From the IMG/VR virus record IMGVR_UViG_3300047551_002225, positions 1 to 34,530 of that record: a stretch of DNA of 34,530 bases, one strand, 5' to 3'. The DNA is from a virus. A model generated the notes under the pieces. That model made no database searches, was not told the DNA's origin, and saw only the letters and a list, made by a program, of their open reading frames with translations. Both the position numbers and the translations under genes were made by a program. How positions within the stretch are numbered: the stretch's first letter is position 1; the number at the start of each line of letters is the position of its first letter. Shown here piece by piece: positions 7,701-23,885 of the stretch.

Positions 7701-7930
7701 ACCGCGTACGGTGTGACTGCATTGTAGTTACCGCGGAAATTGATGCCCTCGACCATGACCTGCCAGTGCGAGGTTGCGGTCGGAAGAGTGCCTGTCGTGG
7801 CAACTTCATTTGTGTAGACATACACGTTGCCGCCGTAGCGAACGCAGTCGTTCAGCTCGTATTCAGTCGCGGTGCTGTACTCTCCGGCAAAATAGAAGCG
7901 GAGCTTTCCAAGATCGATTAGTTGTGCCAC
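4757..7930 (-). CDS. Large modular tail fibre with six tandem N-terminal modules
   Basis: 1057 aa. Residues about 6-325 are six tandem repeats of 50-56 residues with the pattern G-x-(Y/W)-x-x-x-T-x-Y-x-x-N-D-x-V, then an exposed strand and W (as in YNAVTPYAVNDVVAFGG), resembling carbohydrate-binding 5/12-like modules of phage fibres. Residues about 345-735 hold two copies of a roughly 190-residue unit (DGYLFM/DGYIFM ... NKIVFAAGGLTSGN ... VHIEIATxST), of a type seen in marine phage fibres. The C-terminal part has the AKGDIIVATAPDAMTRLGVG linker shared with another fibre here, then SIGQLIFETDTDYINRY and an end domain. The start is GTG, directly abutting the upstream stop. It is a probable structural fibre; which end contacts the host is not evident. 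Confidence 0.8.
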   Translation of the reverse strand: MAQLIDLGKLRFYFAGEYSTATEYELNDCVRYGGNVYVYTNEVATTGTLPTATSHWQVMVEGINFRGNYNAVTPYAVNDVVAFGGILYTCIQNSTNNVPTNTTYWEKFVDGLQYEGNYNNATPYQKNDIVTYGARAYIATATTTGNLPTNTSYWQVFADGLASLGLYNAATEYKKNDVVYLGGRTYVALRDTVGDEPGATGSGSDWAVFADGLKFRSNWNTATRYELNDIVLRGGNAYICILAHTSAGTFNADLTALKWSVYSQGFRFRGIWTPETDYLVNDLVSDGNSTFVSSADFTSGATSILDDAYWSVFALGADYLPAQVSNENKLLSTDGTDPFWSSNIDISGDVQAGGVLYLGQDAYTIATAVALPNLIGLAVGDAGGSSEEYAQFVVWNKNTDGLASTDLIVQTHDATDSDGFIDIGITGENFDSETYGITGPNDGYLFMVAPTGTTGEGNLVLATGDTGTANKIVFAAGGLTSGNTQMEIIPDTSVHIEIATASTSTTTGALVVAGGVGVQGDMNVQGDLNVIGNLALSGLDYIGVGDGAAAFGATLTNPIATFQIDADDYAQVAFRNISDAVNASTDFIAYADDGSDNDGYIDIGITSSNFADPEFTLTGAHDGYIFMNAPTGSGGAGNLVLATGANGVENKIVFAAGGLTSGNEQMIITPFQSVHVEIATESTSATTGAFTVDGGIGLTGNLNVGGNVGIVGNVDIQGQITIAGGGTTFDTANLAVVDPMIYVAQSNSDNAVDFAFVGEAAFPITPIARTVTNKVLTDNIATLTVSAAHTFQEGDYVVVAGVDATFNGTHLITDLPTASSFSFAKTATNVPAASATGTATVSNRAKYSGLAKDATDGIWKLFADASTKPANTVNFSEAGVRYDDLQLRNITAVGNVAVTGTLKQNNHDVLTNDIANAKGDIIVATAPDAMTRLGVGSNTTFIQADSAQATGLKYTSLATDTVLGAVQVTASTSRPASPSIGQLIFETDTDYINRYTSSGWKALGPVFLGFTTDDDGNLTAVTGPDGTYNVGDYTDYGILPAEMTVSVNASGQLVLTS

Positions 7931-8890: not shown

Positions 8891-9352
8891 CTATGTTGCT
8901 AGCCACCAGTTTGTTGCGAATCCAAGTCCGCCGCCACCTTCTGGACCTTGAGGACCTGTAGGACCTGTTGGACCAAGAGAGCCGACTGGACCGGTAGGTC
9001 CAAGAATATTGCCCGAGTTATTCCACGACGAAGTAGATTGTATCCAAACGTAGAGATCGCCATTGTCAAGAAGATAGGCGTCTCCCACTGAACCAACTGG
9101 ATGCGCTGTGACAAGGTCGTTGTACGTCTCAAACTGCGCGAGGATGAGAGTCGGAACTCCTTGAGGTCCAGTTGGCCCGAGTGGGCCAGTCGGCCCAAGT
9201 GGTCCAGTTGGACCTAGTGGACCTGTAGGTCCTGTAGGACCCACAAGCTCTGTGACAACAAGGTCCCAAGTGACGCCTGTCCATGTCCATTTCTGCGTGC
9301 CGTATACGTATTCGTCACCTGGCGTTGGATCGAACGGAAAATCAATAGCCAT
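8891..9352 (-). CDS. Short collagen-like fibre with DFP anchor and LYVW module
   Basis: 153 aa. Residues 1-37 are an anchor ([18 protein letters not shown]...WTWTGVTWD) shared with the next two genes upstream. Two collagen-like blocks of GPT/GPL triplets, residues about 38-62 and 117-138, flank one compact module ([20 protein letters not shown]...GDLYVW, residues about 67-117). The protein ends in [14 protein letters not shown]. It is a short trimeric shaft, probably a tail or capsid fibre. Its ATG overlaps the next stop upstream by one base. The module occurs four more times in this window, so this gene looks like a minimal form of the larger collagen proteins. Confidence 0.75.
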
Positions 9353-10632
9353 TACGACAACCTAGCCCACGGTGTTGACACGGTGTTTGAGTATGTTGTG
9401 CGCGACGTTGGAAGGTCTGCTTGTGATCCAGCAGCGCCTGTCATACGAGGTGGAAGAGAGTTTATTGTTGTGATTGGACTTGCGTAGTTCATGTACACAG
9501 AACCTGCACCTGTAGCCACCATGATGATCGCGACTGCGTACCGCTGTCCTGCTTCTAGTGTGTATGACGCCGGGTAGCCGCTTAGCACAGAAAACGGCTT
9601 TGTGTACGCAGTGTTTGCAGAAGAAAGAATACCAGTATCATTGTCTGTTCGCGCGACAAGCGTCGCGTTGTCGCTTGCATCGACTGTGTAAAGACCAAAT
9701 CGTGCGATTGATACGCCGCTTGAGACAATCGTGCCTGAGACATAAGTGATATTTGACACCGTCAATGTGTACAGAGGAGTGAAGAACGTGAAGAACGCGG
9801 TTCCAGTTGCGAGGTTTGTTGTTGTGTTGACAGTTCGCGGAGCGGTGTCAATCGCGTTTGGTGAAAGATGGAAGTGGCCTTGAATCGCCGTGAGTGACGG
9901 AGCACCGATGTGGTACGGACTAATAGCCACGCCGGTAGAGTCTTTGACGACGCTGCCAGAATAGTAGACAAGATTTGACGTGTTCGAGATACCGTGCACT
10001 GACGTTGACGCCGCAATGTGATCGCCAACTGTAGTTGACCACTTGATTCCAGTAGCTTCTGTGTCGTCTGCCTCGAGAGTAGTGCCGTTTGCTCCAACTC
10101 CAAGACGCGCAACAAGATTGTCAGCGGTTCCGGCGATCAAGTCACCTTTTGCGTCGACCATTGTTCGAAGAACGACATCTGCGGTGTTTGGAATGCCGTG
10201 AACGTCTGTTGTGTCGATACGGTGCGCTTCCGTCGAGGCAGCGGCTTCATTCTGCGCTTTTTCGAGAGCGCCGAGCTGAGTCTCAAGTTCTTCGACATCA
10301 AAGATTCCGTGGACGTTTGTTTGCTGCGCATTGTGCGCCGCGACTGCGGCGGCCGCGGCTGCATCGGCCTTGCTCTGCGACCCGGACACCGTCTCGATTG
10401 TCGGGCCTGACAGCGTCTGAGTACCGGCGTTCCACACGAGCGGAGCGGAGGTGTTGATCGTTTGAGCAGGACCAGTAGGCCCTGTCGGACCGAGCGGTCC
10501 TGTTGGTCCAGTTGGGCCTGCCTGGCCAAGACTTGAGTCTTGGTCCCACGACGTACCAGTCCATCGGTACGTCTTGTTTCCAACGACGACTGTTTGGTTC
10601 AGTACTGGAGAGTTAGGAAAGTCTACTGCCAC
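9352..10632 (-). CDS. Collagen-like tail fibre with three VHGI repeats
   Basis: 426 aa from the GTG at 10630-10632. I chose this start because the protein then begins VAVDFPNSP, matching the DFP anchors of its two neighbours, and lies seven bases after the upstream stop; an extended frame to 10716 would add unrelated residues. Order: DFP anchor (1-35), short GPT collagen block (about 43-60), Ala-rich helix, three H-x(n)-VHGI motifs in heptad-like surroundings ([27 protein letters not shown]), an [20 protein letters not shown] linker, then a beta-rich C-terminal domain of about 170 residues. H...VHGI repeats are common in actinophage fibres. A trimeric receptor-binding fibre is the likely role. 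Confidence 0.75.
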
Positions 10633-10639
10633 GATGCGC

Positions 10640-12394
10640 TCACAGTTCCGCCGACGAAGTGAATGTATACAACGAGCCAGCTGAGTGGTTGCCGGTCTGC
10701 ACGTGACCGTCGGCACTTACCGTGAACGACGCACCTGTACCGACGTTGAATGTTGGAGTGAGAATAGGAGTTGCTCGCTTGCGTACCTTGTAGAACACCG
10801 TCGGAAATGACGAAGATGCCGCTGTGACAACAGCATGCGAGTTGCCGGCAGACTTTTCAAAGTACCGCATGCAGCGAGCGAGCTCAATTGAGAGTGGCCG
10901 AACATCAAATGGACTTGCTACAGTATTGACCTCGAGCTGCGCCTGAGTAAAAGCGATGTACTGTGACGCAGATGACGCAAGATTTGTTTGACCGACAGCT
11001 CTGTTCGCCGTGACAGTTGCTCCCCACGACGACGCAAGCGTGCCGCTTGTGTAGTCAGTCCCAGCGCCGAGGTACCAACCGACAATCAACGAAGCGTTGT
11101 TGTCATTGTCGAACTGACCGACTGTGTCGCCAGCAAAAGTGATCGTCTTCTTTTCCCATGTGTCTGCGACGTTGATACTGTACGCGGCACTGACCGAGCG
11201 GGTGTTGTCGTTGTCGTACAGTTCTGCAATGTAAGTGCCAATGACGTTAGACTTTACGTAAAATGAAAGTGTCAGTGCAAGAGCATCAGCTGTTCCTTTC
11301 TTAGCAGACTGAACGTCAAATCCTTCAAGCTTCTGCTCAATGCGAGAAAATGAGTTTGGTGTTGGCGCTGGTGATGCGGCTGTGCAGGTGAGCTTCAACG
11401 CGCTTCGAGAAACGTCGACAGCGTCACTTATTTGTTCTGATGTCCAGATACCTATGCCTGAGATCACATGATTGAACCTGTCAACAGTGTAGTAGTTGGT
11501 CGATGAAATCGACGCGACTGAAGTAGAACGCTGCGCTACGCGCATGTCTCCATTTGTCAGCAAGTTTCGGAACGGGACAAGTGCAAGACCTGTTGGTCCA
11601 GTTGGACCGGTTGGTCCAGTAACTCCAGGTCCTGTGGGTCCTGTTGGTCCAGTTGCGCCGCGAGGTCCTGTAGGACCAGTTGGTCCGCCTGACGGACCAG
11701 TCGGACCTTGCGGACCTTGCGGACCAGTTGGGCCTGTGATCGCTTCGCCTTGCGCGCCTGTCGGTCCAGTTGGACCTTGCGGACCGGTTGGTCCGGGAAC
11801 TTCAGGACCAGTAGGACCAGTCGGACCAGCGTCGTTCGCTGAGACCTCGACCCAGAATCCATCGTAATAGACGTATGTCTTCAAGTTGATCGTGTTGAAC
11901 CAAGCGTCACCTTCTTCAGGCGTCGGGTTTGGATACGTCTCTCCAGCAAGATACTTGCCATTTGTTCCCGCTGGACCTGTCGCGCCTGTGACTGACTCGC
12001 CAGCTGGACCAGTAGGTCCCATCGGTCCGGTGACATTTGATGGAAGTCCTTGCGGTCCAGTTGCGCCTGTAGGCCCAAGAGGACCTGTAGGACCGGTTGC
12101 GCCGACAGGCGCGGCGCCGACCTCAACCCAGAAGTCGTCATAGTAAACGTAAACTTTTCCAGTCACACCGTTGAACCACGCCTGACCTAGTGACGGTGAT
12201 GGCGGCGGAGTCTCAGTTGCGATTGAAAAGATTCCATACGGGCCGGTTGGTCCGAGCGGTCCAGTAGGACCTGTCGGACCTGTAGGAGTAATACGCAGCG
12301 TCTCCCAAGCCGTACCGTTCCACACCCACTGAGAGTTTCCTCCGGTGTGAACCTGCCCAACTACTGGGTCATTTGGAAAATCAATCGCTGACAC
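10640..12394 (-). CDS. Collagen-like tail fibre with C-terminal beta-sandwich domain
   Basis: 584 aa. Residues 1-35 are the DFP anchor ([19 protein letters not shown]). GPT/GPL/GPQ collagen blocks (about 37-52, 95-125, 190-270) are interrupted by two copies of a 45-residue module ([20 protein letters not shown] and [19 protein letters not shown]). The C-terminal 310 residues begin [18 protein letters not shown], the first strand of a carbohydrate-binding-type beta sandwich seen in many phage fibres and appendages. The start is GTG with GAGGAG at a 6-7 base spacing. It is the longest of three tandem DFP-anchored genes. Likely a side or tail fibre whose C-terminal end binds glycans; the ligand is unknown. 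Confidence 0.8.
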
Positions 12395-12436
12395 TAAAGC
12401 TCCTCGGCTTCAAGAACTTCCTAAATCTTACTACTT

Positions 12437-12601
12437 CTACAACGACTCCAAGCCTGCGTTTAGGCGTGAGACCATGAGCATCGCCCAGTCTGCGGCAGCA
12501 GACACCGACTCCCACGGCCCTGAGTTGTCTATAAGACTTCCATCTTTATAGATCTTCGCCATCGGCGGAGTCTCTTGAATCTCATACGTGTACATGTCCA
12601 T
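12437..12601 (-). CDS. 54-aa protein beside the fibre genes (unknown)
   Basis: I place the start at the ATG 12599-12601, after TAGGAG that overlaps the stop of the propeller gene; a longer frame exists but lies inside that gene. The protein reads MDMYTYEIQETPP, then a short strand with KIYKDGSLIDNSGPW, then a helix (VSAAADWAMLMVSRLNAG). Short proteins of this pattern (YxYEI...KDGxLID.SGPW...A..WA) occur beside fibre genes in various phages and have no assigned function that I know. A role as a fibre accessory protein or chaperone is possible from position only. Confidence 0.65.
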   Translation of the reverse strand: MDMYTYEIQETPPMAKIYKDGSLIDNSGPWESVSAAADWAMLMVSRLNAGLESL

Positions 12602-12608
12602 GTTTCTC

Positions 12609-13526
12609 CTATCCAGACGACGTCGCGATCTTTCCAGCCTGGCCGACCGCGACGAACGTACCAGATCCAAACACCACTGAGTTGATTGGTGTTGTGCCAA
12701 ACGATGATGTTTGCTGAACCCACGCGTCGTTGCTGACCGAGCTCAAGATTCTAGAAGTTCCGAGCTTGCCTGAAAAGCCTGCCGCTACAAGCATACCGTT
12801 ACCGCCGTACGACACTGCCTCAAGAGTTGAAGACAAGAACGTGTTTGCCTGTTGTGTCCACGCGGTTCCATCTGGACTTGTAGCGATCTTTCCGTTGTTT
12901 CCAACGATGACTGCGTATCCAGTAGGTGTGTGCGCGATCTCTCGGATTCTGTCTGTTCCAAAAGATGACGTACGTTGAGTCCAAGAGATTCCGTCTACAG
13001 ATGTCGCGAGCTTGCCAGCGTCTCCAACAGCAACCCACTTTCCGCCTCCGTATGAGATGTCATAGATGTAAGTCGTGCCGAACGACGAAGTGCGCTGCGT
13101 CCAGTTGAGACCGTCGATGCTCGTCGCCAACTTACCTCCGACTCCTGCGGCGATCCAAAATCCTTCGTAGTACGCAACAGTAAGAATAGTAGTTGTGCCG
13201 AACGAAGACACGCGCTGAAACCAGTTCACGCCGTCTACCGACGTTGCCATCTTTCCAGTACTGCCAACAGCAACCCACAAGTTGTTTCCGTACTGTACGC
13301 TCCAGATGTTGCTTGTGCCGAACGACGACGTCAGCGACGACCACGTCACGCCGAGGTCTTGAGACACGGACATCTTTCCTGAGTCGCCAACTGCTACAAA
13401 CACCGAGTTACCATAGGTGACGTGGTTGATGTTTGACGATCCAAACGTAGATGTGCGCTGCGTCCATGTCTCAGGCACAAGAGCTCGTTTGATTGAGCCA
13501 ATAGCTCCGTGAACAGATATCAGCAT
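12609..13526 (-). CDS. Seven-repeat BNR/YCF48-like beta-propeller fibre tip
   Basis: 305 aa from the ATG at 13524-13526, two bases after the stop of the big collagen gene; a longer frame exists but lies in that gene. After a short leader (MLISVHGAIGSIKRALVPE) come seven repeats of about 40 residues following W-x-Q-R-x-S-S-F-G-(S/T)-x-x-I-x-x-V-x-Y-G-x-x-x-(F/W)-V-A-V-G-x-x-G-K-(M/L/I)-A-T-S-x-D-G, as in WTQRTSSFGTTYIYDISYGG. Seven repeats predict a closed seven-bladed propeller of the BNR/YCF48 or sialidase-like type. The Asp-box-like turns (S-x-D-G) are visible, but no sialidase catalytic residues stand out. Probably a receptor-binding head, possibly mounted on the collagen protein encoded just upstream. 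Confidence 0.75.
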   Translation of the reverse strand: MLISVHGAIGSIKRALVPETWTQRTSTFGSSNINHVTYGNSVFVAVGDSGKMSVSQDLGVTWSSLTSSFGTSNIWSVQYGNNLWVAVGSTGKMATSVDGVNWFQRVSSFGTTTILTVAYYEGFWIAAGVGGKLATSIDGLNWTQRTSSFGTTYIYDISYGGGKWVAVGDAGKLATSVDGISWTQRTSSFGTDRIREIAHTPTGYAVIVGNNGKIATSPDGTAWTQQANTFLSSTLEAVSYGGNGMLVAAGFSGKLGTSRILSSVSNDAWVQQTSSFGTTPINSVVFGSGTFVAVGQAGKIATSSG

Positions 13527-13528
13527 GG

Positions 13529-16500
13529 CTAGTCTACCAAGCTGCCGAAGAGAACCCACGTATTTGCAGCGCGCTTGATCAACGATACACCTGACCACTG
13601 CTGCGAAAGCTTTCGTCTATTTTGTTCTGAGTTCAACGTCACGCCTACGGCAGGAGCAACGGACGCCTGACCGAGACCAACCTGAACAATCACAAGCTGT
13701 GTGCCTACTGCAAAGTCGTACGTCGAGTCGGCAGGAATTGTTAGCTCGACTGCAAGTGCTGAGTCGACCTCGACAAGCTTGCCAGCGTCGCTTGCACCGA
13801 GCGTGTGCGACGACGTAATGATTGAAGACGTGAGATTGTAGAACCCAGGACCGGTCGCACCGACTGGACCTGTTGGGCCTTGCGGTCCAGTTGGACCGGT
13901 GACGTTAGACGCCAGTCCTTCAGGACCTGTTGGGCCTTGCGGTCCAGTTGGACCGGTGACGTTAGACGCTGGACCCTGCGGGCCGGTCGGCCCGGTCGGT
14001 CCAATGACGCCTTGCGGACCAGCGACTGTTGATGCAGGACCAGTAGGACCGGTGGGTCCAGTTGCGCCTTGCGGACCTTGCGGTCCAGTCGGACCAGGAG
14101 TTGTTGAAGTTGGACCTGTGACGCCTTGTACGCCTTGCGGACCTTGCGGACCAGTTGGGCCAGTGATACCTGGACCTGTTGGACCTTGCAATCCTTGAGG
14201 ACCAAGTGGGCCAGTTGGACCGGTGGGACCAGTAGGTCCAAGCGGGCCGGTTGGACCTGTGACTGTTGACGCAGGACCTGTCGAACCAGTAGGACCTGTC
14301 GGACCAGTCGAGCCGCGCGGGCCTGTGACTGTTGACGCAGGACCTACTGGACCTGTTGGGCCAGTGTCGCCTTTGTTACTTGACGCTGACTCAATCCAAT
14401 AGCCGTCGTAATAGACGAAGATCTGGCCTGTTGAAGAGTTGAACCAAGCGTCGCCGATATCAGCAGAAGGTGGAGGTGTCGCAGAAGAGATCGCAAACTG
14501 ACCGATGTCACCCGTGGGTCCAGTTGGGCCAGTTGGACCTGTGTCGCCAATAGGTCCTGTAGGACCTGTAACCTCAGGACCTGTCGGGCCTGTAGGACCG
14601 ACGTTGCCTTCAATACCTTGCGGTCCGGTTGGACCAGGTTCACCTTGCGGTCCTGTTGCACCTGTTGCGCCAACTGGACCTGTAGGTCCTTGAATGTTTC
14701 CGACGTTTACCCATGTCGAACCGACAGCATTCCAGACATACAGGTCGCCGTTCTCAACAAGATACCCGTCGCCTGCGTTACCAGTTGGGTGCGCAGCTTG
14801 CAGCGCAGCAAGATCGGCGTATTCGCCTAGAATTGTTACAGCCGAGCCTTGAGGACCTGTCGGACCAAGATCGCCCTGCGGACCTGTAGGTCCTAGTGGA
14901 CCTGTCGGACCGACGTTTCCTTGAGGACCAGTCGGGCCAAGATCGCCTTGCGGACCAGTTGGACCGAGGTCACCTTGCGGACCAGTTACACCTTGCTCAC
15001 CTTGCGGACCAGTTGGACCCAGATCGCCTTGCGGGCCTGTTGGGCCAAGCGGACCAGTTGGACCTACTTCACCTTGAATGCCTTGCGGTCCAGTTGGACC
15101 AAGATCACCTTGCGGACCAGTTGGACCGAGGTCACCTTGCGGACCAGTTACACCTTGAATGCCTTGTGGTCCTGTGGGACCAATGTCACCTTCAGGTCCT
15201 GTCGGTCCTTGAATTTGACCAACGTTGACCCACGAAGACGACGTTGCAGACCACACATACAAGTCACCGGCAACAAGATAGCTGTCACCTGGATTTCCTG
15301 TCGGCTGAGCTGCGATGAGTGCTGCGTATGAAGCATACGAACCAAGAATGGTGACGCCAGTTCCTTGGGGACCTGTTGGACCAAGCTCGCCTTGCGGTCC
15401 TGTTGGACCGAGCGGTCCAGTTGGTCCAATGTCTCCTTGCGGACCAGTCGGGCCAAGATCACCTTGCGGACCAGTTGGACCGAGGTCACCTTGCGGACCA
15501 GTTGCACCTTGCTCGCCTTGCGGACCAGTCGCACCGACTGCGCCAACAAACGAGTATGGGTTCCAGTAGACTCCAAGATTTCCACCTGTCGGAGGAAGCG
15601 CGTCGTTTGTCGCAAGACAGATGAAGTAACTTCCACTATAGAAGATGATCTCACCCGGCTGATACGCGTTTTCAAACGCGCGCAACGGCGAGTACTCGAA
15701 CGCATCGAAGCCTTGCGGTCCAGTAGGACCGGTTGGACCTAGGTCACCCTGAGGTCCTGTAGGACCTGCATCGCCTTGCGGACCAGTTGCGCCTTCAGGC
15801 CCAGTTGGGCCGAGGTCACCTTGCGGACCTGTCGGACCCTCTGGACCTGTCGGACCAAGATCACCTTGCGGACCAGTTGGACCGAGGTCACCTTGAGGAC
15901 CGACGTCGCCTTGCGGGCCTGTAGGACCTGCGTCGCCTTGAGGACCTTGATCACCTTGTGGTCCGGTTGGACCAATGTCGCCTTGTGGACCTGTCGGTCC
16001 TTGAATACCTTGCGGACCAGTCGGACCTTCAATGCTGCCGACGTTGTCCCACTCTGAACCAACGTTGTCCCAAACGTACAAGTCACCGTCAACAAGATAT
16101 CCGTCACCAGGATTTCCTGTCGGGTGCGCCGCAATGAGTGCGTTATACGTAGCGTATGAGCCAAGAATTGTGATTGACGTTCCAGCAGGACCTGTAGGTC
16201 CGGTGTCGCCAACAACACCTTGAGTGCCTTGAATACCTTGCGGACCTGTCGCACCTGTTGCTCCGGCGGGTCCAGTTGGTCCGACGTCACCTTGCGGACC
16301 TTGCGGACCAGTAGGACCGCCTGAAGGTCCAGTTGGCCCGAGTGGACCGGTTGGTCCTGAAGGACCTGTAGGACCTGTCGCACCTTGCGGTCCAATAGAA
16401 CCACGAGCGGCTGCACCTGCAGTCGCGTCAGAGACAGGAGAAAGACTGCCAAGTTGAGAGAAAATATCGACAGGGCTTCCGTCACCTATTGGAAGGAAGA

Positions 16501-16804
16501 TCCAGAACTTTGTCGGCTTGACGCCGTTGATACGCACTTGAACTTCGTACGCCCAACCTGTCGGCTTGAGCGCTGGGTTGTCTGTTGTCGGAAGAGTGAT
16601 GCTGAATGCGCCTGCTCCGTCAAGAGTAGCCACAACAGGATCTGTTACGATGACATCATCGTTCTCATCGACGACCGTGCTGGTCGGAGTAAACGTGACT
16701 GTGCCTCGACCGGCAGTTCCGCGCGCGGTAATGTAGCTACCGGTTACAACACGGGTTACAATGTCCTCTGACCAACTCACCGACGAATCCACCTTGTCCT
16801 GCAT
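13529..16804 (-). CDS. Large collagen-like fibre with five interspersed modules
   Basis: 1091 aa. Residues 1-135 are a beta-rich N-terminal head ([19 protein letters not shown]...). The rest is mostly collagen triplets G-P-T/G-P-Q/G-D-(L/I/V), interrupted by three copies of a compact module ([20 protein letters not shown]...GDLYVW, near residues 215-265, 488-535, 655-705), one NDAL-type module ([20 protein letters not shown], near 370-420) and one [17 protein letters not shown] module (near 775-820). The last 90 residues form a globular end. This composition predicts a long jointed trimeric shaft. A hairpin encloses the start codon. It is the first gene of the fibre operon, and the propeller gene follows two bases after its stop. 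Confidence 0.85.
14939..15900 (-). repeat. Near-identical direct repeats inside the collagen gene
   Basis: Four copies of a block beginning AAGATC(G/A)CCTTGCGGACC and running into AGTTGGACCGAGGTCACCTTG start at 14939, 15101, 15455 and 15857. The first three extend about 55 bases with only one or two differences; the fourth diverges after about 40. They encode [19 protein letters not shown]. The codon-level identity exceeds what the protein needs, so the array was probably made by recent unequal exchange, and it should be prone to length change. Confidence 0.75.
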
Positions 16805-16814
16805 TGCTCGCAGG
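16798..16814 (-). promoter_or_regulatory. Hairpin enclosing the start codon of the large collagen gene
   Basis: On the minus strand CCTGC, seven bases, GCAGG form a five-pair stem. The loop carries the AT of the ATG and the stem takes its G. No strong Shine-Dalgarno precedes it. A TATTAT box lies about 38 bases upstream (plus-strand 16842-16847), so the hairpin would sit in the leader. It may dampen initiation; this is inferred from base pairing only. Confidence 0.35.
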
Positions 16815-16858
16815 GTGCAACAATGCTAAAACTACTGGAGAATAATACCAACGGTAGA

Positions 16859-17242
16859 CTACTCCTCATTCCTACGGGAAGCCACAAATCCAATGGTCGC
16901 GGACTCAGAACTCTTAGGCTTTTCATCTTCTAGAACTGTTAGTTCTTTCGGTTGAACTGGTTCTGTAGCGTCAGCTATAGCCGCGTACGCCGCGGCGCTG
17001 ACCCAGTGCTCATGAGCGTCGACCAAAGTCGTCGCTCTCACTAGGTCGTAGGCACTGAGCATCGCCGCTACTTCAGACGGCGGGATCGGTCCTTCTAGGT
17101 CCAAGATTCCAGACCACACAACGCCGACTCTTGAGAGATCGGTGTGTTGCTGATCTGCCATCTGCGCGGTGACAACAAGCTGTGCGGTCTCGAGCACTTT
17201 GCTCTTGTGGGAGTCCTTCAAGATGCGACGAGACTTGGCCAT
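16859..17242 (-). CDS. DUF6378-like phage protein
   Basis: 127 aa, helical, no membrane segment. The core V-W-S-G...L-E-G-P-I-P-P-S-E-V-A-A-M-L-S-A-Y-D-L-V-R-A, then A-H-E-H-W-V-S-A-A-A-Y-A-A-I-A, matches the layout I remember for the DUF6378 phage family (a W, a PxxVAxMM-type helix, an acidic/His turn, then AGYxAL). No function is established for that family to my knowledge. The tail after residue 95 is charged and probably disordered. The ATG has GGAG six bases upstream, and a good extended -10 promoter precedes it in the 81-bp gap after the phosphoesterase gene. Family match from memory, hence moderate confidence. Confidence 0.6.
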   Translation of the reverse strand: MAKSRRILKDSHKSKVLETAQLVVTAQMADQQHTDLSRVGVVWSGILDLEGPIPPSEVAAMLSAYDLVRATTLVDAHEHWVSAAAYAAIADATEPVQPKELTVLEDEKPKSSESATIGFVASRRNEE

Positions 17243-17293
17243 TCACGACTCCAATACAGTCATGTCCTACCGGGGGCACGGCGGGATAGCCAA

Positions 17294-17322
17294 ATTGTAT
17301 CAACGCATTGAGAGTGTGACCA
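17294..17322 (-). promoter_or_regulatory. Promoter for the DUF6378-like gene and perhaps the fibre operon
   Basis: Minus strand: TGGTCA, 17 bases, TACAAT, with TGA immediately before the -10 (extended -10). It lies in the 81-bp gap between the phosphoesterase stop and the DUF6378-like start. Because only 54 bp separate that gene from the collagen gene, this promoter could also feed the whole fibre block. Confidence 0.5.
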
Positions 17323-17323
17323 C

Positions 17324-18340
17324 TCAGTCGAGCCAGATGACGTATTCTGCCGTCACTCGACCTTTGTCTGGATCGACGAAGTGAATACGTTGCGACGGTC
17401 TGCCGATCGCGGCGACGAACTCTCGAGCGTACTCGTTGCCGGACTCAGGAGAGCCAGTCACGAACACTCGACCGCCGTTCGCCATCGTCAGCGCCATCGG
17501 CGTGTGCCAGTGACCCATGTAGACGTCTTGGAAGTCTTCGACCACTCCTGTCGCCCAGGCATTCGCCTTGCGGAGAATACCGAACGCCGGCGTGTTGCCG
17601 CCGAAGCTCTTGATCTCGTCGCCGTGCACCAGCAACGCTTTGTAGTTGCCGATAGTGACGATTTGATACCAGTCACCTGACATCTGCCACGTGACGTTCT
17701 TCAGATCTTTTGTTCTGTCTTGACAGATCCGGTACGCCATCGCGTCGATGTTGTCACCTGACGGAAGTTCTCCCTTACGACCGAGACGACCGTGGTTGCC
17801 GAACTCGCAGACGATCGAGACCTTCTCGAAAGTCGATGAAAACGAGCGGACCATCTTTTCCATGATCCGCGCGGCTTCGAAGAGCTGCTCGAACAGATGC
17901 GCCTCTACTTCCCAGGCTTGCCCGGGAAAGATCGTGATGCCTTCGACCATGTCTCCGCCGAAAAGAAGACATAGCTCTCTGACCGGGTGATGGCTCTGCT
18001 GGATCGTCGAAAGTTCGTTGACCTTCACGATCATTTGATCCATACGAGCGGCGCAGGTAGTCATGCCGTACGAGACGGTCTTCTTTCCAAGCTGCCAGTC
18101 GGTGGCGTGAACTACTGCAACCTCGCCTTTGCCTTTGCGAGGATCTTTAGCTGGTGGCTTTTGCTTGTCTGGGATCCCTCGGCCGGCGGCGATGCCTGCA
18201 TCGTACGCTGCCTTATAGACTGCTTCTACAAGTTCTTCGTTCTTGCGCTTGGCCTTGTATTCAGAAGCCTGGGCGGTCTTTAGAGCTCTTCGGAGATCTG
18301 CTATCTCTTCCTCGAGCTTGATCTCATCCTCAAGACTCAT
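17324..18340 (-). CDS. Calcineurin-like phosphoesterase (Mre11/SbcD-type fold)
   Basis: 338 aa. Residues 1-45 are a charged coiled coil. The metallophosphoesterase core follows: HATDWQLGK (D81, with Q83 where most members have His), GGDMVEG (D130), GNHGR (N182-H183), LLVHGDE (H239) and GHWHTP (H277, H279). These residues bind two metal ions that cleave phosphodiesters. The fold with GNH and GHxH suits DNA nucleases of the Mre11/SbcD type, and the DWQ variant is common among phage members. It overlaps the HTH gene by four bases (ATGA) and lies beside the primase-helicase, so a role in replication or recombination is likely. Substrate not determined. Confidence 0.8.
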   Translation of the reverse strand: MSLEDEIKLEEEIADLRRALKTAQASEYKAKRKNEELVEAVYKAAYDAGIAAGRGIPDKQKPPAKDPRKGKGEVAVVHATDWQLGKKTVSYGMTTCAARMDQMIVKVNELSTIQQSHHPVRELCLLFGGDMVEGITIFPGQAWEVEAHLFEQLFEAARIMEKMVRSFSSTFEKVSIVCEFGNHGRLGRKGELPSGDNIDAMAYRICQDRTKDLKNVTWQMSGDWYQIVTIGNYKALLVHGDEIKSFGGNTPAFGILRKANAWATGVVEDFQDVYMGHWHTPMALTMANGGRVFVTGSPESGNEYAREFVAAIGRPSQRIHFVDPDKGRVTAEYVIWLD

Positions 18341-18612
18341 TTGATCTTCGTCGAGAGTTCTCCTCGACGATACCTCGAAATGACTGACGAGGCGAGCTTA
18401 TGTCCTCTGCGCGCCATTGCCTTTGAGATTCGCGAAGCCGAGATCGCGTGGTCGTCGAGCGCTGCCAGCAGATCTTTTCTGTCTGACGGCTCGAGTGCCT
18501 CTAGTATCTCGGCGATTCGTGACCTGTTTCCAGGGTGAATCTCCGTTTCTTGGATCTCCTTGAGAAGATCGCCCATAACCGTACCTCCCATGATTTGGCC
18601 GGTGTTTGTCAT
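18337..18612 (-). CDS. Small helix-turn-helix DNA-binding protein
   Basis: 91 aa. Residues about 25-85 are helical; SASRISKAMARRGHKLASSVISRYRRGEL is written here in parts: the first helix is SASRISKAMARRG, the turn is HKL, and the recognition helix is ASSVISRYRRGEL. This layout (A-x-x-L/I-S-x-A-hydrophobic-x-x-x-G-H, then S-x-x-x-I-x-R-Y-R-R-G-E-L) is frequent in actinophage and cyanophage small HTH proteins. It probably regulates early genes or aids replication initiation, and could recognise the inverted repeat at 18705-18719. Translation starts five bases after a TATAGT box with no Shine-Dalgarno, so the transcript may be leaderless. It is coupled to the phosphoesterase. Confidence 0.65.
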   Translation of the reverse strand: MTNTGQIMGGTVMGDLLKEIQETEIHPGNRSRIAEILEALEPSDRKDLLAALDDHAISASRISKAMARRGHKLASSVISRYRRGELSTKIK

Positions 18613-18617
18613 TAGTC

Positions 18618-18626
18618 ACTATATCA
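18618..18626 (-). promoter_or_regulatory. Extended -10 promoter for the HTH-phosphoesterase pair
   Basis: TGATATAGT on the minus strand ends five bases before the HTH start codon. No convincing -35 is seen, but TG at the extended position is present. It is one side of a divergent 121-bp region with the primase-helicase on the other side. Confidence 0.4.
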
Positions 18627-18704
18627 TACTCATTGTCATCGCGTGTGAACTATCAACAAATTCTTTGTAAGCTCATCTATGTCTTCTTTTTTGTCCACAT
18701 TCAC

Positions 18705-18731
18705 GCTTCAACGCGAAGCTTGGTGTATTAT
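18705..18731 (+). promoter_or_regulatory. Inverted repeat and TATTAT box ahead of the primase-helicase
   Basis: GCTTC-AACGC-GAAGC (18705-18719) is a perfect five-base inverted repeat, followed by TATTAT (18726-18731) just before the annotated ATG. If TATTAT is the -10, transcription starts after the first ATG and the in-frame ATG at 18806 becomes the likely start. The repeat lies where a -35 would be, so it could be an operator, for instance for the adjacent HTH protein. Inference only. Confidence 0.35.
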
Positions 18732-18733
18732 GA

Positions 18734-21421
18734 ATGACCTACACAACAAATAGCGCGGCCAGAAGCTTCGCACATCTCTCAACCGAAAGAAGATCTCTCG
18801 CTTCAATGACAACATGGGAATCAGCAACTGGTAGACTGGGTTCAGCTGCCGAATGGTACGCACAGCAGGGCTGGTTCGTCATGCCTTGCTACGGCATTGT
18901 CGGCGGACGCTGCACGTGCGGCGGATCGCACCCCGAGCCGAAAGACGTAGGCAAGCATCCTCGCGTAAGCGAGTGGAACGTGCAGGCGACTGCGAACATC
19001 GACGCAGTCAAAACGTGGTGGACACAAGACCAAGACAGCAACGTCAGCGTGTACTGCCGACCGAGCGGATTCTTTGTCATCGACATCGATCCGAGAGCGG
19101 GTGGGCCTGACTCGTTTGAAAAGTTTGAGTCTCTTGTAGAAGGTGCGCTTCCGCCAACAGTTGAGGCGATCACTGGCTCGTACACCGCGAACGGCAAGAT
19201 TATTCGAGGCAGACATCTTTTCTACAAGTGCGACGAATCAGAGTCGCTAGTTGGCAATCTCAAGAAGTCTGGTCTAAACGGCATCGACATCAAGCACAAC
19301 GGTTACGTGCTTATCGCGCCGTCACGACATTTCTCTGGCGTGTGCTACGAGTGGGTGCAAGGCAAAGCGCCTTGGGAGATCCCAGTCGCGCAGGCACCAG
19401 AAGAGCTGCTGTCGGCGCTAAGAAAGCGCGGAAAGCGAGCTACATCCAAACTGGGCGAAGGCGATTGGACTTGGCTCGAAGACGCAGACTTCTCTGGCGA
19501 GAGAGTCGACGTTGACAGGCTTCTTACTGAAGGCATCGACGAAGGCTCTCGCGCCGTTGACATCTACGCACTCGCGTGCGCTCTCGCTAACAAGTTTCCT
19601 GTGAACACCGAGGCAGGTCGCCTAGCAGTTGAGACAATGATGATTCGCTTCAACGCCGAGAAAGTACGTCCACCGCTCGAGCTCGAAGGACAGGGCGGAC
19701 TGTTGATGCATGTTCGTCGCGCTATCCAGTTCGTTGTTGACAACCCAAAGACAGAGAAGCTGTGGCCAGGTCTGCAAGACTGGGCGATCAAGTCGCAGGA
19801 AGAAACGCGAGCTAAGTCAGGCATGACAACGACGTCAATCGTCGCACGGCCTCCTACTCAGTCGGACACAACTTACTTGCCTGGCACGATCGGCGGGACA
19901 GTGTCCGCGGCATTACAAGACGGTGACTCACTTGCAAAGGCGACAAGCCTGACGAACATCGACGTACCGCAAGACCCAGACGCGATCAGCGAAGAAGAAG
20001 GCGGCGAACCTGGCAAGCGAACGCTCACCGACACCGGCAACGGTCGTCGACTCGTCGACTCGTTTGGCGCCGCGGTCAGATACACTCCAGGTCTAGGCTG
20101 GTTTCACTGGGACGGCGGATACTGGAAGCCAGACGTCGAGAGCCTTGAGATGCAAGAACTTGCAAAGAAGATCGCGCCTATTGTCGCAAGCGAGGTTGTC
20201 CACTATCTCGACGACGCAGACAAGCAGTCAGAGGTAATCAAGTGGGCGCAGCAGGCGAAGTCAAACTCGCGCATAACGTCTTGCATCGAGAGCGCCACTT
20301 CGGACCCGCGAATCTTGGTTGGCGTCAACAACTGGGACTCTGACGAGACTCTTCTTGGCGTAGCCAACGGAGTGATCAATCTCCGCACCGGTGAGCTCTT
20401 GAAAGGACGCCCGGATCTCTACATCACTCGCCGCGCGCCGGTCGCGTACAATCCTGGAATACGCAATATCCGCTGGGAACAGTTCATTGACTTCGCGACT
20501 GGTGGCGACAAAGAGCTTCAGGAATGGTTGCAACGAGCGGCTGGATACTCGCTTACTGGACTACGAACATACGATGTCATGTTCCTAGTCTACGGTCCTC
20601 CAGGATCAGGTAAGAACACGATGGTTGAAGCGCTGGTCAAAGCGCTCGGCACGGCGCAGTACGCGTGGCCGTTAGACTCAAGCATTCTTGCTCAAGGCGA
20701 CGGACAAGCGCACGGTGCGGACCTGTATCACTGGGCAGAGCTTCGCGGGCGCCGTATGGTGTGGGTCGACGAGTTGCCAGAGTCAGAGCGCATGAAAGAG
20801 AACTCGGTCAAGAAACTGACAGGCTCTTCTGAGATCTCAGCGCGTTCGCCAGGTGAAAAGCCGTTTACGTTCCAGTCACAGGCGAAGCTGTGGGTCACCA
20901 CAAACCACAGGCCGATCATCAGCGACGACGCGATGTGGCGCCGACTTCGTCCGATACCGCTCACAAACATTCCAGAAAATCCAGACCCAGACCTCAAGCA
21001 CTACATCTTTGATCCAGAAGGCGCACTGCCGGCGGTGCTGTCGTGGGCAGTCGAAGGCGCGATCAAGCTTCTTAGTTCGAGCGCACGCGATGCTCTTGGC
21101 TGGTGCACCGCAGTCAGCGACGCTGCTGAGATCTACCGTAAGAACGAAGACCGCATCGGATTCTTCTTGAACGAAGAGACCAAAGAGTCAGAAGGCGCGG
21201 CTACACCTGTAAAGTCACTGTACGCGGTCTACCGTATCTGGTCAGAAGAACGAGGCGAGAAGCCAATGACACAGATCGCATTTCAGCGCAAGTTGCAAGA
21301 CAGAGGCATCGCCGTTGAAGGCCACGGATCACGCGCGCAGTTGATGGGCCGTTTGCTGATGCCGAGAGTGGTGCCGCAAGGTGAGGTTGACTGGGGAATC
21401 GCTACAAGATTCGCTAGATAA
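18734..21421 (+). CDS. Bifunctional primase-polymerase / SF3 (D5-type) helicase
   Basis: 895 aa. The N-terminal prim-pol (AEP) domain spans about 35-225, with catalytic DID (D117, D119), GRHLFY (H161) and the GIDIKHNGYV...PSRHFSG motif. A linker follows. A D5_N-like region (RLVDSFGAAVRYTPG) starts near 440. The superfamily 3 helicase has Walker A GPPGSGKN near 621, Walker B VWVDELPE near 675 and sensor LWVTTNHRP near 718. It would prime and unwind phage DNA as one polypeptide. The start is uncertain: no Shine-Dalgarno precedes 18734, and the ATG at 18806 (residue 25) is a serious alternative that keeps every domain. It ends 38 bases before the terminator hairpin and is transcribed convergently with the recombinase. 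Confidence 0.9.
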   Translation: MTYTTNSAARSFAHLSTERRSLASMTTWESATGRLGSAAEWYAQQGWFVMPCYGIVGGRCTCGGSHPEPKDVGKHPRVSEWNVQATANIDAVKTWWTQDQDSNVSVYCRPSGFFVIDIDPRAGGPDSFEKFESLVEGALPPTVEAITGSYTANGKIIRGRHLFYKCDESESLVGNLKKSGLNGIDIKHNGYVLIAPSRHFSGVCYEWVQGKAPWEIPVAQAPEELLSALRKRGKRATSKLGEGDWTWLEDADFSGERVDVDRLLTEGIDEGSRAVDIYALACALANKFPVNTEAGRLAVETMMIRFNAEKVRPPLELEGQGGLLMHVRRAIQFVVDNPKTEKLWPGLQDWAIKSQEETRAKSGMTTTSIVARPPTQSDTTYLPGTIGGTVSAALQDGDSLAKATSLTNIDVPQDPDAISEEEGGEPGKRTLTDTGNGRRLVDSFGAAVRYTPGLGWFHWDGGYWKPDVESLEMQELAKKIAPIVASEVVHYLDDADKQSEVIKWAQQAKSNSRITSCIESATSDPRILVGVNNWDSDETLLGVANGVINLRTGELLKGRPDLYITRRAPVAYNPGIRNIRWEQFIDFATGGDKELQEWLQRAAGYSLTGLRTYDVMFLVYGPPGSGKNTMVEALVKALGTAQYAWPLDSSILAQGDGQAHGADLYHWAELRGRRMVWVDELPESERMKENSVKKLTGSSEISARSPGEKPFTFQSQAKLWVTTNHRPIISDDAMWRRLRPIPLTNIPENPDPDLKHYIFDPEGALPAVLSWAVEGAIKLLSSSARDALGWCTAVSDAAEIYRKNEDRIGFFLNEETKESEGAATPVKSLYAVYRIWSEERGEKPMTQIAFQRKLQDRGIAVEGHGSRAQLMGRLLMPRVVPQGEVDWGIATRFAR

Positions 21422-21458
21422 GTTTCTTCGCTCGGGGAGAGACGGGCGCTGAAAAAAC

Positions 21459-21498
21459 GAGCCGGGATTCTGAGACGAGAGACTCAGGGTCCCGGCTC
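21459..21498 (-). terminator. Rho-independent terminator of the recombinase gene
   Basis: GAGCCGGGA and TCCCGGCTC pair over nine bases, extended by CTGAG/CTCAG after a two-base mismatch, with an eight-base loop. Read on the minus strand, the stem is followed by CGTTTTTTC, a typical U-tract. The recombinase stop codon is inside the stem. In the plus direction no T-run follows, so for the primase gene it would be only a weak or Rho-assisted stop. Confidence 0.8.
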
Positions 21499-22182
21499 AA
21501 CTACTTTGTTGTGCTTTCCTTTGAGAAGTACGTGAGACACGCTAGACGCATACCACTTCTTTCCGCCGTTGCTAGTTGAGACCTCAAGCTCGTTGAGCTT
21601 TCGCGCGATCTCTGAGTAGCTGATCCCAGAAGCTCGCCACTGTGTCATCACGTTGAGGACTTCGGCAGGGATCTTTGTCTTAGGACCTTTGTCCTTGCCC
21701 CAGACAACTCCGTTAGCTCGGCGATCTTTATGGACATCTTTCTGCCGCTCGGCGATAATCGCTCGCTCCATCTCTGCAAGAGCTGACATGATTGTGACAA
21801 CAAACCGTCCTTGGTACGTAGAGGTGTCGAGGTTGAGGTCGAGCATGACCACGCGCCAGTTGTTCTTATTCGCTCGGTCGATGATCGACAGGAAGTCTTG
21901 AGTAGACCTGGCAAGTCGGTCGACCCTTGTGACGATCAGCGCTTCTGCCTCGCCGCGGTCTAAGCGCTCGAGAGCAGACGAGAGAACTGGACGGCCTTTG
22001 ATACTTTTACCAGATCTGCCCTCTTCCCTGAGAAGCTCTGTCTTCTTGTACCCGATGTCGCTAGCAGCCTTCTTGAGAGCTCGCTCCTGCACGGCAAGAG
22101 ACATTCCGTCGTTTACTTGCATAGAAGTGGACACTCTTGTATACAGTAACGCGACTTTCTTTGATGACTTGCTAGTTTCCAT
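21484..22182 (-). CDS. Small serine recombinase (resolvase/invertase family)
   Basis: 232 aa from the ATG at 22180-22182; a TTG at 22206 would add eight residues and neither start has a strong Shine-Dalgarno. The N-terminal catalytic domain has YTRVSTSMQ (S18 nucleophile, R16), the RVDRLARST motif and the long helix GRFVVTIMSALAEMERAIIAER. The C-terminal part (IPAEVLNVMTQWRASGISYSEIARKLN, in parts) is a helix-turn-helix with a short basic end. The length fits resolvases, invertases and small phage recombinases, not the 450-600 residue large serine integrases. It follows a collagen fibre gene on the same strand; an inverted repeat with a two-base centre lies 54 bp upstream of its start. The product could resolve genome multimers, invert a fibre segment or integrate; the sequence does not decide. 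Confidence 0.8.
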   Translation of the reverse strand: METSKSSKKVALLYTRVSTSMQVNDGMSLAVQERALKKAASDIGYKKTELLREEGRSGKSIKGRPVLSSALERLDRGEAEALIVTRVDRLARSTQDFLSIIDRANKNNWRVVMLDLNLDTSTYQGRFVVTIMSALAEMERAIIAERQKDVHKDRRANGVVWGKDKGPKTKIPAEVLNVMTQWRASGISYSEIARKLNELEVSTSNGGKKWYASSVSHVLLKGKHNKVVEPGP

Positions 22183-22236
22183 ATCCAGTAAGGCTTTCCG
22201 GGACAATCTTGTACAAAACTCGTTGGCTACACTCTA

Positions 22237-22258
22237 ACACACCTAAGTTTAGGCGTGT
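22237..22258. repeat. 22-bp inverted repeat with central GT, candidate recombinase site
   Basis: ACACACCTAA-GT-TTAGGCGTGT: two ten-base arms match at nine of ten positions around a non-palindromic dinucleotide. Serine recombinases bind such dimer sites and cut with a two-base overhang at the centre. It lies in the 107 bp between the fibre stop and the recombinase start, so it could also be an autoregulatory operator. A two-base loop is too tight for a terminator hairpin. Confidence 0.45.
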
Positions 22259-22289
22259 ACACAGGAAACCGTTGTCCAGTATGGACTTT

Positions 22290-23885
22290 TTAGGCAAATC
22301 CGCCGGCGTTTGTAAAGTTGGCCGAGTTCAACGAAACCTTCTGCCAGGTGTTAGTTGCTGTGCAAATGTACAAAGTTCCACTGGCATCGTCAATACATAT
22401 TTCACCAAGTGTGCCTGTTGAAGTCTTTGATGCTGGATACCCAGATTTATAGGCAATGCCAGTTACGGCAATGGCATTTTTGTTCTTCCAAAGACTTGTA
22501 GCAGTTTCATATACCAACAGTTGCTTGTCTTGTAAACCATTGATCAAGACGTTGTGAAGTTCTTGCACTTCAAAGCCATTCTGTGGCCTGACAAAGATCT
22601 CTCCGTTGTTCTGCTGCTTTCGAGTAACAATACCGATAAATACAAGATGATTAGGCGCGACTGGTTTGTTTGCGAGACCAAAAATCAGATTTCCATCATC
22701 ACCGAGCCAAATTGGATCTCCAGCGGCGTTGGCAGCAGAAGTGTCAAGTCCTTCAACAAGACCTTCAGTGACGACATATCCTGCATTGTTTGGATCAATT
22801 GACTCTGCCATCACGCCAAGAGTCTTTGAAGACGTCGCTTCTGTGCTGTAGTCAGCAAGTCCGACAAGCATATTTGTTCCTGCGAGACCTGTTGATCCGA
22901 TTACGTAGACCGCTTTTCCTGCCGCTATCGTCGACGCTATTCCATTTCGCACGAGGTGCCGGACAAGAGACGTCGCTGTTGTTGTAGCAGGCGGACCTAT
23001 CGGTCCTGTTGGTCCGGTCGGACCTGTCGGACCTACTGATCCTGTCGGACCAGTAACTGTTGAAGCAGCGCCTGTTGCGCCTGTAGGACCGGTCGGTCCA
23101 GTTGGACCTTGCACTGTAGAGTCGGAACCTGCTGGACCAGTTGCTCCAGTCGGTCCAGTTGGTCCAGTGGGCCCGGCGGAGCCGAGCGGACCTGTAGCAC
23201 CTGTAGGACCCATAGGACCCAGCAAGTTGCCTGCGTTATTCCAAGAAGAAGACGTCGAACTCCACACGTAAAGATCGCCGCCGACAATGTGAGCGTCACC
23301 TGGATCTCCAGTCGGATGCTCGGCGATAAACTCGGCATACGTATCGTGATAGTCCAAAACTGTGATGCCTGTGCCTGTCGCACCTGTCGGGCCAATAGGT
23401 CCTGTCGCGCCTGTGTCACCTGCTGGACCCGTCACGCCGGTTGGACCGGTTGGTCCTGTCGAACCTTGCGCACCTACGGCACCGCTTGGTCCGGTCGGGC
23501 CTGTTGGACCTGGAACTGTTGAGTCTGCGCCAGTTGGACCGGTTGCGCCTGTGAGTCCTATCTCACCTTGTGGACCTGTTGGACCTGTGGGTCCGATCTC
23601 GCCGGTGGGTCCGGTCGGGCCTGTTGCGCCTGTTGGGCCAAGCGGACCTGTCGCGCCGATCGCGCCGGTTGGACCTGTGACTGTTGACGCTGCGCCGGTT
23701 GGGCCAATGGGTCCAGTTGGACCAGTCGGTCCGGTCGGTCCTTGAATGCCTTGAGGACCTTGATCACCAGAGATGATGACCTCTGTCTTTTCGTTGATGA
23801 CCTCGATGATCGCTTCGGTCTCGGTGACCTCTACAGTTGTCTTCGAGACATCAACGTAGACTACGCTGCTAGCAAGGTCATCCAT
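22290..23885 (-). CDS. Collagen-like fibre with neck-appendage-type C-terminus
   Basis: 531 aa. Residues 1-40 are a beta-rich anchor ([20 protein letters not shown]). Collagen triplets (GPT, GPQ, GAT) run from about 42 to 170 and again from about 222 to 300, separated by one LYVW module ([20 protein letters not shown]...GDLYVW). The C-terminal 230 residues ([20 protein letters not shown] ... [19 protein letters not shown] ... [19 protein letters not shown]) form a type found in marine and freshwater phage appendages. The gene overlaps its upstream neighbour by one base. It lies apart from the main fibre block, next to the serine recombinase. A trimeric fibre is the likely role. Confidence 0.8.

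Follow-up and report, generated by a model that had tools for sequence, protein, structure and literature searches.

Small modules between the collagen-like tracts of phage fibres: candidate in-line trimer clamps

We analysed a virus record of 34.5 kb (IMG/VR IMGVR_UViG_3300047551_002225, 34,530 nucleotides; hereafter the window), in which five genes on the minus strand encode Gly-X-Y tracts, mostly GPT, and share a set of small recurring modules. The proteins are 153 amino acids (aa) (8891-9352), 454 aa, 584 aa (10640-12394), 1091 aa (13529-16804) and 531 aa (22290-23885) long. The cut-off of the Pfam Collagen family (PF01391), 27.2 bits, was passed by the 584-, 1091- (7.4e-66) and 531-aa proteins, and the 153- and 454-aa proteins fell short with 24.4 and 14.2 bits. 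We take the five proteins to be collagen-like fibre chains of a tailed phage. The nearest named relative found was Actinomycetia phage DSL-LC01 (OQ999401), described as a lake phage with a 129-kb genome and a host predicted by its authors (PMC10611076). The host of the window virus is probably an actinobacterium because of this kinship. Megablast of an 8.4-kb piece of the window (13000-21400) against DSL-LC01 aligned the primase gene alone (77.3% over 21% of the piece), and the two gene orders are alike by annotation and size (primase, small terminase, phosphoesterase, a hypothetical gene and the collagen fibre). The sequence comparison with DSL-LC01 covered the primase, the fibre head, the fibre tip and a propeller-like gene.

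The module families are named here by labels coined in this analysis (LYVW, GDAWFN, AIDFP, YIYT, VPEG and CBM-like). An earlier note on this DNA had reported five related copies of LYVW, and these were found where it placed them to within a few bases, all on the minus strand: one in the 153-aa gene (9005-9151), three in the 1091-aa gene (16031-16174, 15212-15355 and 14693-14839) and a single one in the 531-aa gene (23223-23366). The module is 46-50 aa long; four of the copies are 52-73% identical to the 9005-9151 copy, and 15 positions are invariant, far beyond chance. Mean identity of the DNA columns of the five copies is 75%, and thus they are not fresh duplicates. The three copies of GDAWFN in two genes, likewise claimed before, lie in the 584-aa gene (12098-12241 and 11822-11965) and the 1091-aa gene (14366-14509). 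A third shared module, overlooked in the earlier note, is AIDFP, which forms the N terminus of the 153-aa (9257-9349), 454-aa (10537-10629) and 584-aa (12296-12388) proteins.

In the 153-aa fibre the order is AIDFP, collagen, LYVW, collagen, and in the 584-aa fibre AIDFP, collagen, GDAWFN, collagen, GDAWFN, collagen and a C-terminal tip. The 1091-aa fibre has the order c-L-c-B-c-L-c-L-c-G-c, with 194 Gly-X-Y triplets spread over 15 tracts (a tract being four or more), between an N-terminal head domain (16415-16804) and a C-terminal tip (13529-13849). Between its first and second LYVW copies, amid collagen tracts, stands an NDxV-type module (15542-15706) resembling carbohydrate-binding modules (CBM) of family 5/12.

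The NDxV module had been described both in this collagen gene and in tandem in a 1057-aa fibre. Pfam CBM_5_12 (PF02839; cut-off 26.2 bits) matched the tandem units (6980-7900, minus strand) in six stretches with a score of 69 bits; a scan of the entire protein gave four stretches, and our own CBM-like model detected one unit in the gene. The copy in the collagen gene turned out to be a weak relative only, matching the NDxV profile with E 0.0017 for 1,000 sequences, with PGEIIF replacing NDxV and without a Pfam match. The statement that GPT triplets flank every copy holds for LYVW and GDAWFN but fails for the tandem NDxV units, since the 1057-aa gene has no collagen tract. Two further large proteins (179-2515 and 2798-4738, minus strand), both containing RCC1-like propeller repeats, also carry an NDxV-type stretch near the start; the first in addition matches a cupredoxin-like fibre module profile.

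Searches of Pfam, NCBIfam and PDB sequences matched LYVW to nothing above cut-off, the best PDB row having E 0.013, and no Pfam family did better than E 0.002 on 94 copies of the module. The first rows of the PDB profile search with LYVW were villin (E 0.013), gelsolin-type chains (0.063 and 0.21) and an unrelated designed repeat protein (0.2). The GDAWFN profile gave one PDB row (E 0.28), the VPEG profile five (E 0.2-1.5) and a single VPEG sequence none. A 104-aa piece with LYVW matched Kelch_3 at 15.6 bits (E 0.018) against a cut-off of 22; because of this, the best Kelch_3 match among the 94 copies (E 0.0022) should lie below the cut-off too.

Relatives of LYVW were then placed in their gene context. 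The first scans used the LYVW core without flanks and gave 107 loci, namely the best 80 of 255 relatives in the viral scan and 27 loci in the genome scan, 21 of which are metagenome-assembled genomes of Clostridia or Methanobrevibacter. A second scan with a divergent LYVW copy as query, which ends in two flank residues, contributed the best 80 of 102 relatives, and a scan of a phage collection 23 records. The loci are not independent, as some are near-identical and some contigs are common to both scans. Among the 198 copies in the 107 loci, 175 had collagen on both sides; 18 had it upstream with the frame ending soon downstream, three downstream only, one upstream only and one on neither side. 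The second scan yielded 123 copies in 75 of its 80 loci, 115 of them with two-sided collagen. The remainder comprised five with collagen downstream only, because a long insert in the module puts the upstream collagen further off, two with collagen downstream and an upstream frame too short to judge, and one with collagen upstream only. In 13 named phage records the figure was 25 of 29 copies, the others being one upstream with the frame ending, one upstream only, one downstream only and one on neither side. The last is one of the two LYVW copies in gp230 of phage 201phi2-1, whose record lists it as a virion protein identified by mass spectrometry. As a control, the same collagen test made on one side of random 23-aa windows of other open reading frames (ORFs) was passed by 1199 of 20000. 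The module is thus widespread and stands almost always amid collagen; it recurs across phages or contigs from groups that include Actinomycetia, Methanobacteriales, Escherichia and Pseudomonas.

A list of the segments of 20-120 aa that interrupt collagen comprised 367 segments from 181 collagen-like ORFs in 81 of the 107 loci. LYVW accounted for 172 and GDAWFN for 80, with the remainder in clusters and singletons; one 29-member cluster was discarded as a proline-rich wrong-frame or antisense reading. The families were compared as profiles, with ten column shuffles per pair as control (twenty for VPEG). LYVW scored 27.5 over 25 columns with GDAWFN (shuffle maximum 11.0), 22.2 over 22 columns with AIDFP (9.8), 31.2 over 45 columns with the rarer, three-row YIYT family (13.9) and 26.5 over 41 columns with VPEG (11.4). 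GDAWFN was weakly linked with AIDFP (16.9) and hardly with VPEG (14.3). Other families scored 9.6-14.6 with LYVW, the shuffle control being made for the CBM-like one only, whose 9.6 lies within the shuffle range (up to 12.9) for a shallow profile of four distinct rows. VPEG occurs in a methanogen virus and in Lactobacillus, Leuconostoc and crAss-like phages, with two-sided collagen in 12 of 15 copies and collagen downstream only in three. By profile comparison, LYVW is linked with GDAWFN, AIDFP and VPEG.

The earlier note had read the window as a combinatorial fibre toolkit, and the wider set bears this out. The 107 loci and 13 phage stretches, near-identical loci included, gave 101 ORFs that carry two modules or more, and in these 37 module orders occur, one example being L-L-L-L-L-G-G-L-Y-U with collagen between all modules. 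AIDFP stands first in the orders wherever it is present. Direct support for shuffling came from a rearrangement absent from the earlier note, which was found when the two end domains of the 1091-aa fibre, head and tip, were searched by BLAST (E 1e-8) in 200 loci. The head occurs in ORFs of 29 loci and the tip in 33. Besides the window, both stand on one ORF only in loci L001-L005, whose proteins are 90-100% identical to that of the window. In 16 other loci they stand on separate ORFs, the tip on the second fibre gene; 15 of the 16 tip ORFs begin with AIDFP. The arrangement is alike in each of the 16: the head ORF precedes the tip ORF on the same strand, with a gap of 6-8 bases in five loci and of 0.7-1.0 kb in 11. 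DSL-LC01 carries LYVW, GDAWFN and AIDFP like the window; unlike it, head and tip are split over two genes, and its first fibre bears another tip.

The gene that follows serves as a synteny marker. In the window it encodes a 329-aa repeat protein (12609-13598, minus strand) directly after the 1091-aa fibre, which its repeats suggest to be propeller-like; 72 BLAST pieces of it were found among the loci at E 1e-8. It lies directly after the tip ORF in 13 of the 16 split loci, the other three loci ending 65-275 bases past that ORF, and directly after the fused gene in the window and the five other fused loci. A single deletion reaching from the collagen of the first gene into that of the second would yield the fused gene; this mechanism and the direction towards fusion are suggested by the numbers of loci and the synteny. 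Collagen DNA repeat families are common across the fibre genes of the window and could act as homology for recombination. Collagen-like repeats are described as suspected recombination hotspots of phages (PMC7242381), and antireceptor domains with collagen-like repeats between them have been reported (PMC5601072). The DSL-LC01 relative of the 329-aa protein is 60% identical and annotated as 'photosynthesis system II assembly factor', a photosystem-assembly name in a phage predicted to infect Actinomycetia.

A serine recombinase gene (21484-22206, minus strand; PHROG integrase / DNA invertase) adjoins the 531-aa fibre. A search for inverted repeats of a recombinase-driven fibre switch returned 21 pairs, mostly with arms in collagen repeats and otherwise short and imperfect, none convincingly site-like.

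Structures of single chains were predicted with AlphaFold2 from alignments of each family's own copies (94 rows for LYVW, 41 for GDAWFN), without templates. The LYVW model, made for the second copy of the 1091-aa gene with three residues added on each side, has a predicted local distance difference test (pLDDT) score of 87.6 and the order strand-helix-strand-strand-strand. The GDAWFN model, for the copy of the same gene (pLDDT 86.0), has four strands on the same plan with a loop replacing the helix. Both models are confident. In the Foldseek search of PDB, 7chu headed the rows for LYVW; for GDAWFN it stood second, behind an iridovirus capsid chain. On re-ranking with VIA-align, the first ~60 residues of 7chu came top for both models, with collagen XVIII domains among the next rows. 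LYVW matched residues 3-58 of 7chu with Z 5.8 (Foldseek TM-score 0.72), the Acinetobacter phage tailspike 6e1r as second row with Z 5.5, the collagen XVIII domain with Z 4.6-5.1 and a root-mean-square deviation (rmsd) of 3.2-4.0 over 48-50 of 54 residues, and collagen XV with Z 4.9. GDAWFN matched 7chu with Z 5.5, five collagen XVIII entries with Z 4.9-5.4 and rmsd 2.0-2.1 over 47-48 of 48 residues, a sixth with Z 4.1, collagen XV with 4.2 and a phage tailspike with 4.3, and later rows fell to 3.4. Each model thus has collagen XVIII within its top five entries, with the whole domain covered, but at a Z (4.1-5.4 over the collagen XVIII entries) that stays under 8. Among predicted viral structures LYVW had 35 matches at E 0.001: 14 named as collagen, 12 as tail, tailspike, baseplate or virion proteins, five nameless and four others.

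The trimerization domain of the multiplexins, collagens XV and XVIII (PF20010), adjoins the collagen helix, and it is a single domain at the helix end, not repeated inside the helix. LYVW and GDAWFN resemble it in size and, at Z under 8, in predicted fold, and no sequence relation was found. Phage domains of this fold are known. 7chu is ORF18 of Geobacillus virus E2, called a putative pectin lyase (PMC11058221), and the N-terminal domain of a Klebsiella phage K1 lyase, a tailspike domain, is independently described as having a collagen-XVIII-like fold and, in the crystal, associating as a similar trimer that is less tightly held (PMC8822698). Both are N-terminal domains of larger phage proteins with a collagen-XVIII-like fold; unlike LYVW, they are not described amid collagen tracts, and the K1 lyase continues into a beta-helix. 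The K1 lyase itself was not among the rows listed in the fold searches of the LYVW and GDAWFN models.

Small domains between the collagen linkers of phage adhesins are already published. The Tal adhesins of streptococcal and lactococcal phages have 3β domains between collagen-like linkers (PMC9437275; PMC9692632). As described there, beta domains of ~60 aa alternate with the linkers in a trimeric adhesin, ten repeats in BK5-T, and are combined with carbohydrate-binding modules. The window modules fit this description as small beta domains amid collagen-like linkers, and the window fibres are presumably adhesins. The 3β domains belong to a sequence family other than LYVW: in the Tal proteins of BK5-T and TP-778L, four module profiles (VPEG excluded) found no domain with filters off and E up to 100, the GDAWFN profile reporting the BK5-T protein as a whole within E 100 without a domain. 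The side tail fibres EPclA and EPclB of enterohaemorrhagic Escherichia coli prophages are likewise modular phage collagens, the two collagen stretches of EPclB being parted by a Pf2 repeat; unlike the window fibres, they are described with the domains PfN, PCoil, Pf2 and PfC and a measured oligomeric state (PMC3368898). The proposal that LYVW is a previously undescribed domain therefore survives in part: no Pfam or NCBIfam model reaches it above cut-off, but its predicted fold resembles domains of collagen XVIII and phage proteins, and small beta domains in this setting have been published before, in dairy phages. No description of LYVW was found in the open-licence literature, searched by topic and not by its letters.

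We favour, with moderate confidence in the whole, a reading in which the modules act as in-line trimer clamps of the collagen helix, in genes remade by recombination in their collagen repeats. Each fibre would be a homotrimer, with LYVW and GDAWFN as its trimerization clamps. Each chain would contribute one copy to a small three-part prism around the fibre axis, which would start the triple helix on either side, fix its register and give a long thin rod stiff nodes. AIDFP may be a base module, the tips receptor-binding ends and the NDxV units sugar-binding additions. The GPT-coding repeats would supply many similar DNA stretches, at which recombination could add, drop and join modules; in the window lineage it probably joined two neighbouring fibre genes into one by deletion.

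Several results weigh against this reading. Trimer packing is deduced solely from likeness of fold, the models themselves being of monomers. Foldseek gave no match in PDB at E 0.001 or better for the LYVW or GDAWFN model, and Z of about 5 is a range in which common small folds also score. PF20010 matched none of the 94 LYVW copies, and in a comparison with a human collagen XVIII profile LYVW aligned over eight columns with a score reached by two of 60 shuffles. The K1 lyase domain is described as having fewer stabilizing contacts and no swapped loops (PMC8822698), so that strong trimerization does not follow from the fold. The E. coli phage collagens have other trimerizers, PfC measured and PCoil suggested (PMC3368898), so that something other than LYVW could hold the fibres together. 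A gene tree on 46 columns did not separate in-gene duplication from exchange (one-clade tests, p 0.62 and 0.61). Each window copy finds its closest relative in another virus, but with a set of 222 against four this was not counted as evidence. Finally, six LYVW loci (L147, L148, L153, L173, L174 and L058) have 56-63 inserted residues of two sequence types between the helix and strand 2, where the usual loop has about four, which could indicate a display role; the inserts have a weak likeness to the NDxV units (E 0.044 and 10 for 1,000 sequences).

These inserts, by which LYVW can carry cargo, also fit the view that it is mainly a receptor- or sugar-binding knob along the fibre, with copy number tuning avidity. 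A single Trp invariant in 94 of 94 aligned copies and the CBM5/12-like units in the same fibre set point the same way. Yet the most conserved positions of LYVW belong to its strand core, the best-matching folds come from collagen trimerization domains and from phage proteins, no Pfam family did better than E 0.002 on any of the 94 copies, and the score of LYVW with the CBM-like profile lies within the shuffle range. We consider a knob unlikely.

Less probable still is that the modules serve as near-neutral spacers or hinges, which recombination spreads through the repetitive collagen DNA and which have no particular task other than to tolerate the collagen trimer. The wide variation in order and copy number, together with distances of 18 to 597 residues between successive LYVW copies, would suit such spacers, but the module is conserved across phages and contigs of the diverse groups named above. 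In L001-L005 the three copies of the 1091-aa gene also keep their order and 96-100% identity, which is weak evidence because three of the five proteins are 99.7-100% identical to that of the window throughout. That LYVW is a piece of a known gelsolin or kelch repeat domain, as matches at a permissive limit to Kelch_3 (19 of 94 copies) and Gelsolin (seven of 94, best E 0.015) and the leading PDB rows might suggest, is nearly refuted, since the gelsolin-type matches span about 15-25 residues of one hairpin and the whole-domain model matches other folds.

A separate question is whether the LYVW-type modules and the collagen XV/XVIII trimerization domain share an ancestor, a helix-plus-clamp pair having passed from phages or bacteria to animals or the reverse, with VPEG as the bridge. 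Sequence kinship with collagen XVIII was tried hard, and no significant relation was found. In the collagen XVIII profile comparison the score was reached by 30 of 60 shuffles for GDAWFN and 47 of 60 for AIDFP; VPEG aligned over 37 columns in register with a score reached by one of 100. PF20010 passed its cut-off in none of 22 virus records, window included, and had no match at E 10 or better in 13 further records. A sub-cut-off match in one record (vir323, E 0.0013) falls on a VPEG module and not on LYVW, and one of 15 VPEG modules matched PF20010 (16.2 bits against a cut-off of 23.8, E 0.011). Unrelated Pfam families matched as many VPEG members or more at similar E (P2 six, KH_N4BP1 three, best 0.012), and at the permissive limit PF20010 also had matches in seven of 14 control genomes. 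We regard common ancestry as improbable. The VPEG module at L121:321-485, from a Methanobacteriales virus, matches the animal collagen trimerization model below its cut-off.

If the clamp reading is true, a family of small clamps in collagen fibres of bacterial and archaeal phages, resembling the human collagen clamp, would explain how phages hold such thin rods in register, and the modules would be small trimerizers for protein engineering. With a rise of 0.29 nm per residue (PMC3368898), the 582 residues in the tracts of the 1091-aa chain could make a helix of about 170 nm, provided that all the tracts fold. The head/tip rearrangement is a concrete example of how phages could rebuild fibres through recombination among collagen repeats.

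Elsewhere in the window, a ribonucleotide reductase is encoded on the plus strand (28399-30450), and a 286-aa protein on the minus strand (26155-27015) has matches to a tape-measure family and also to endolysins.

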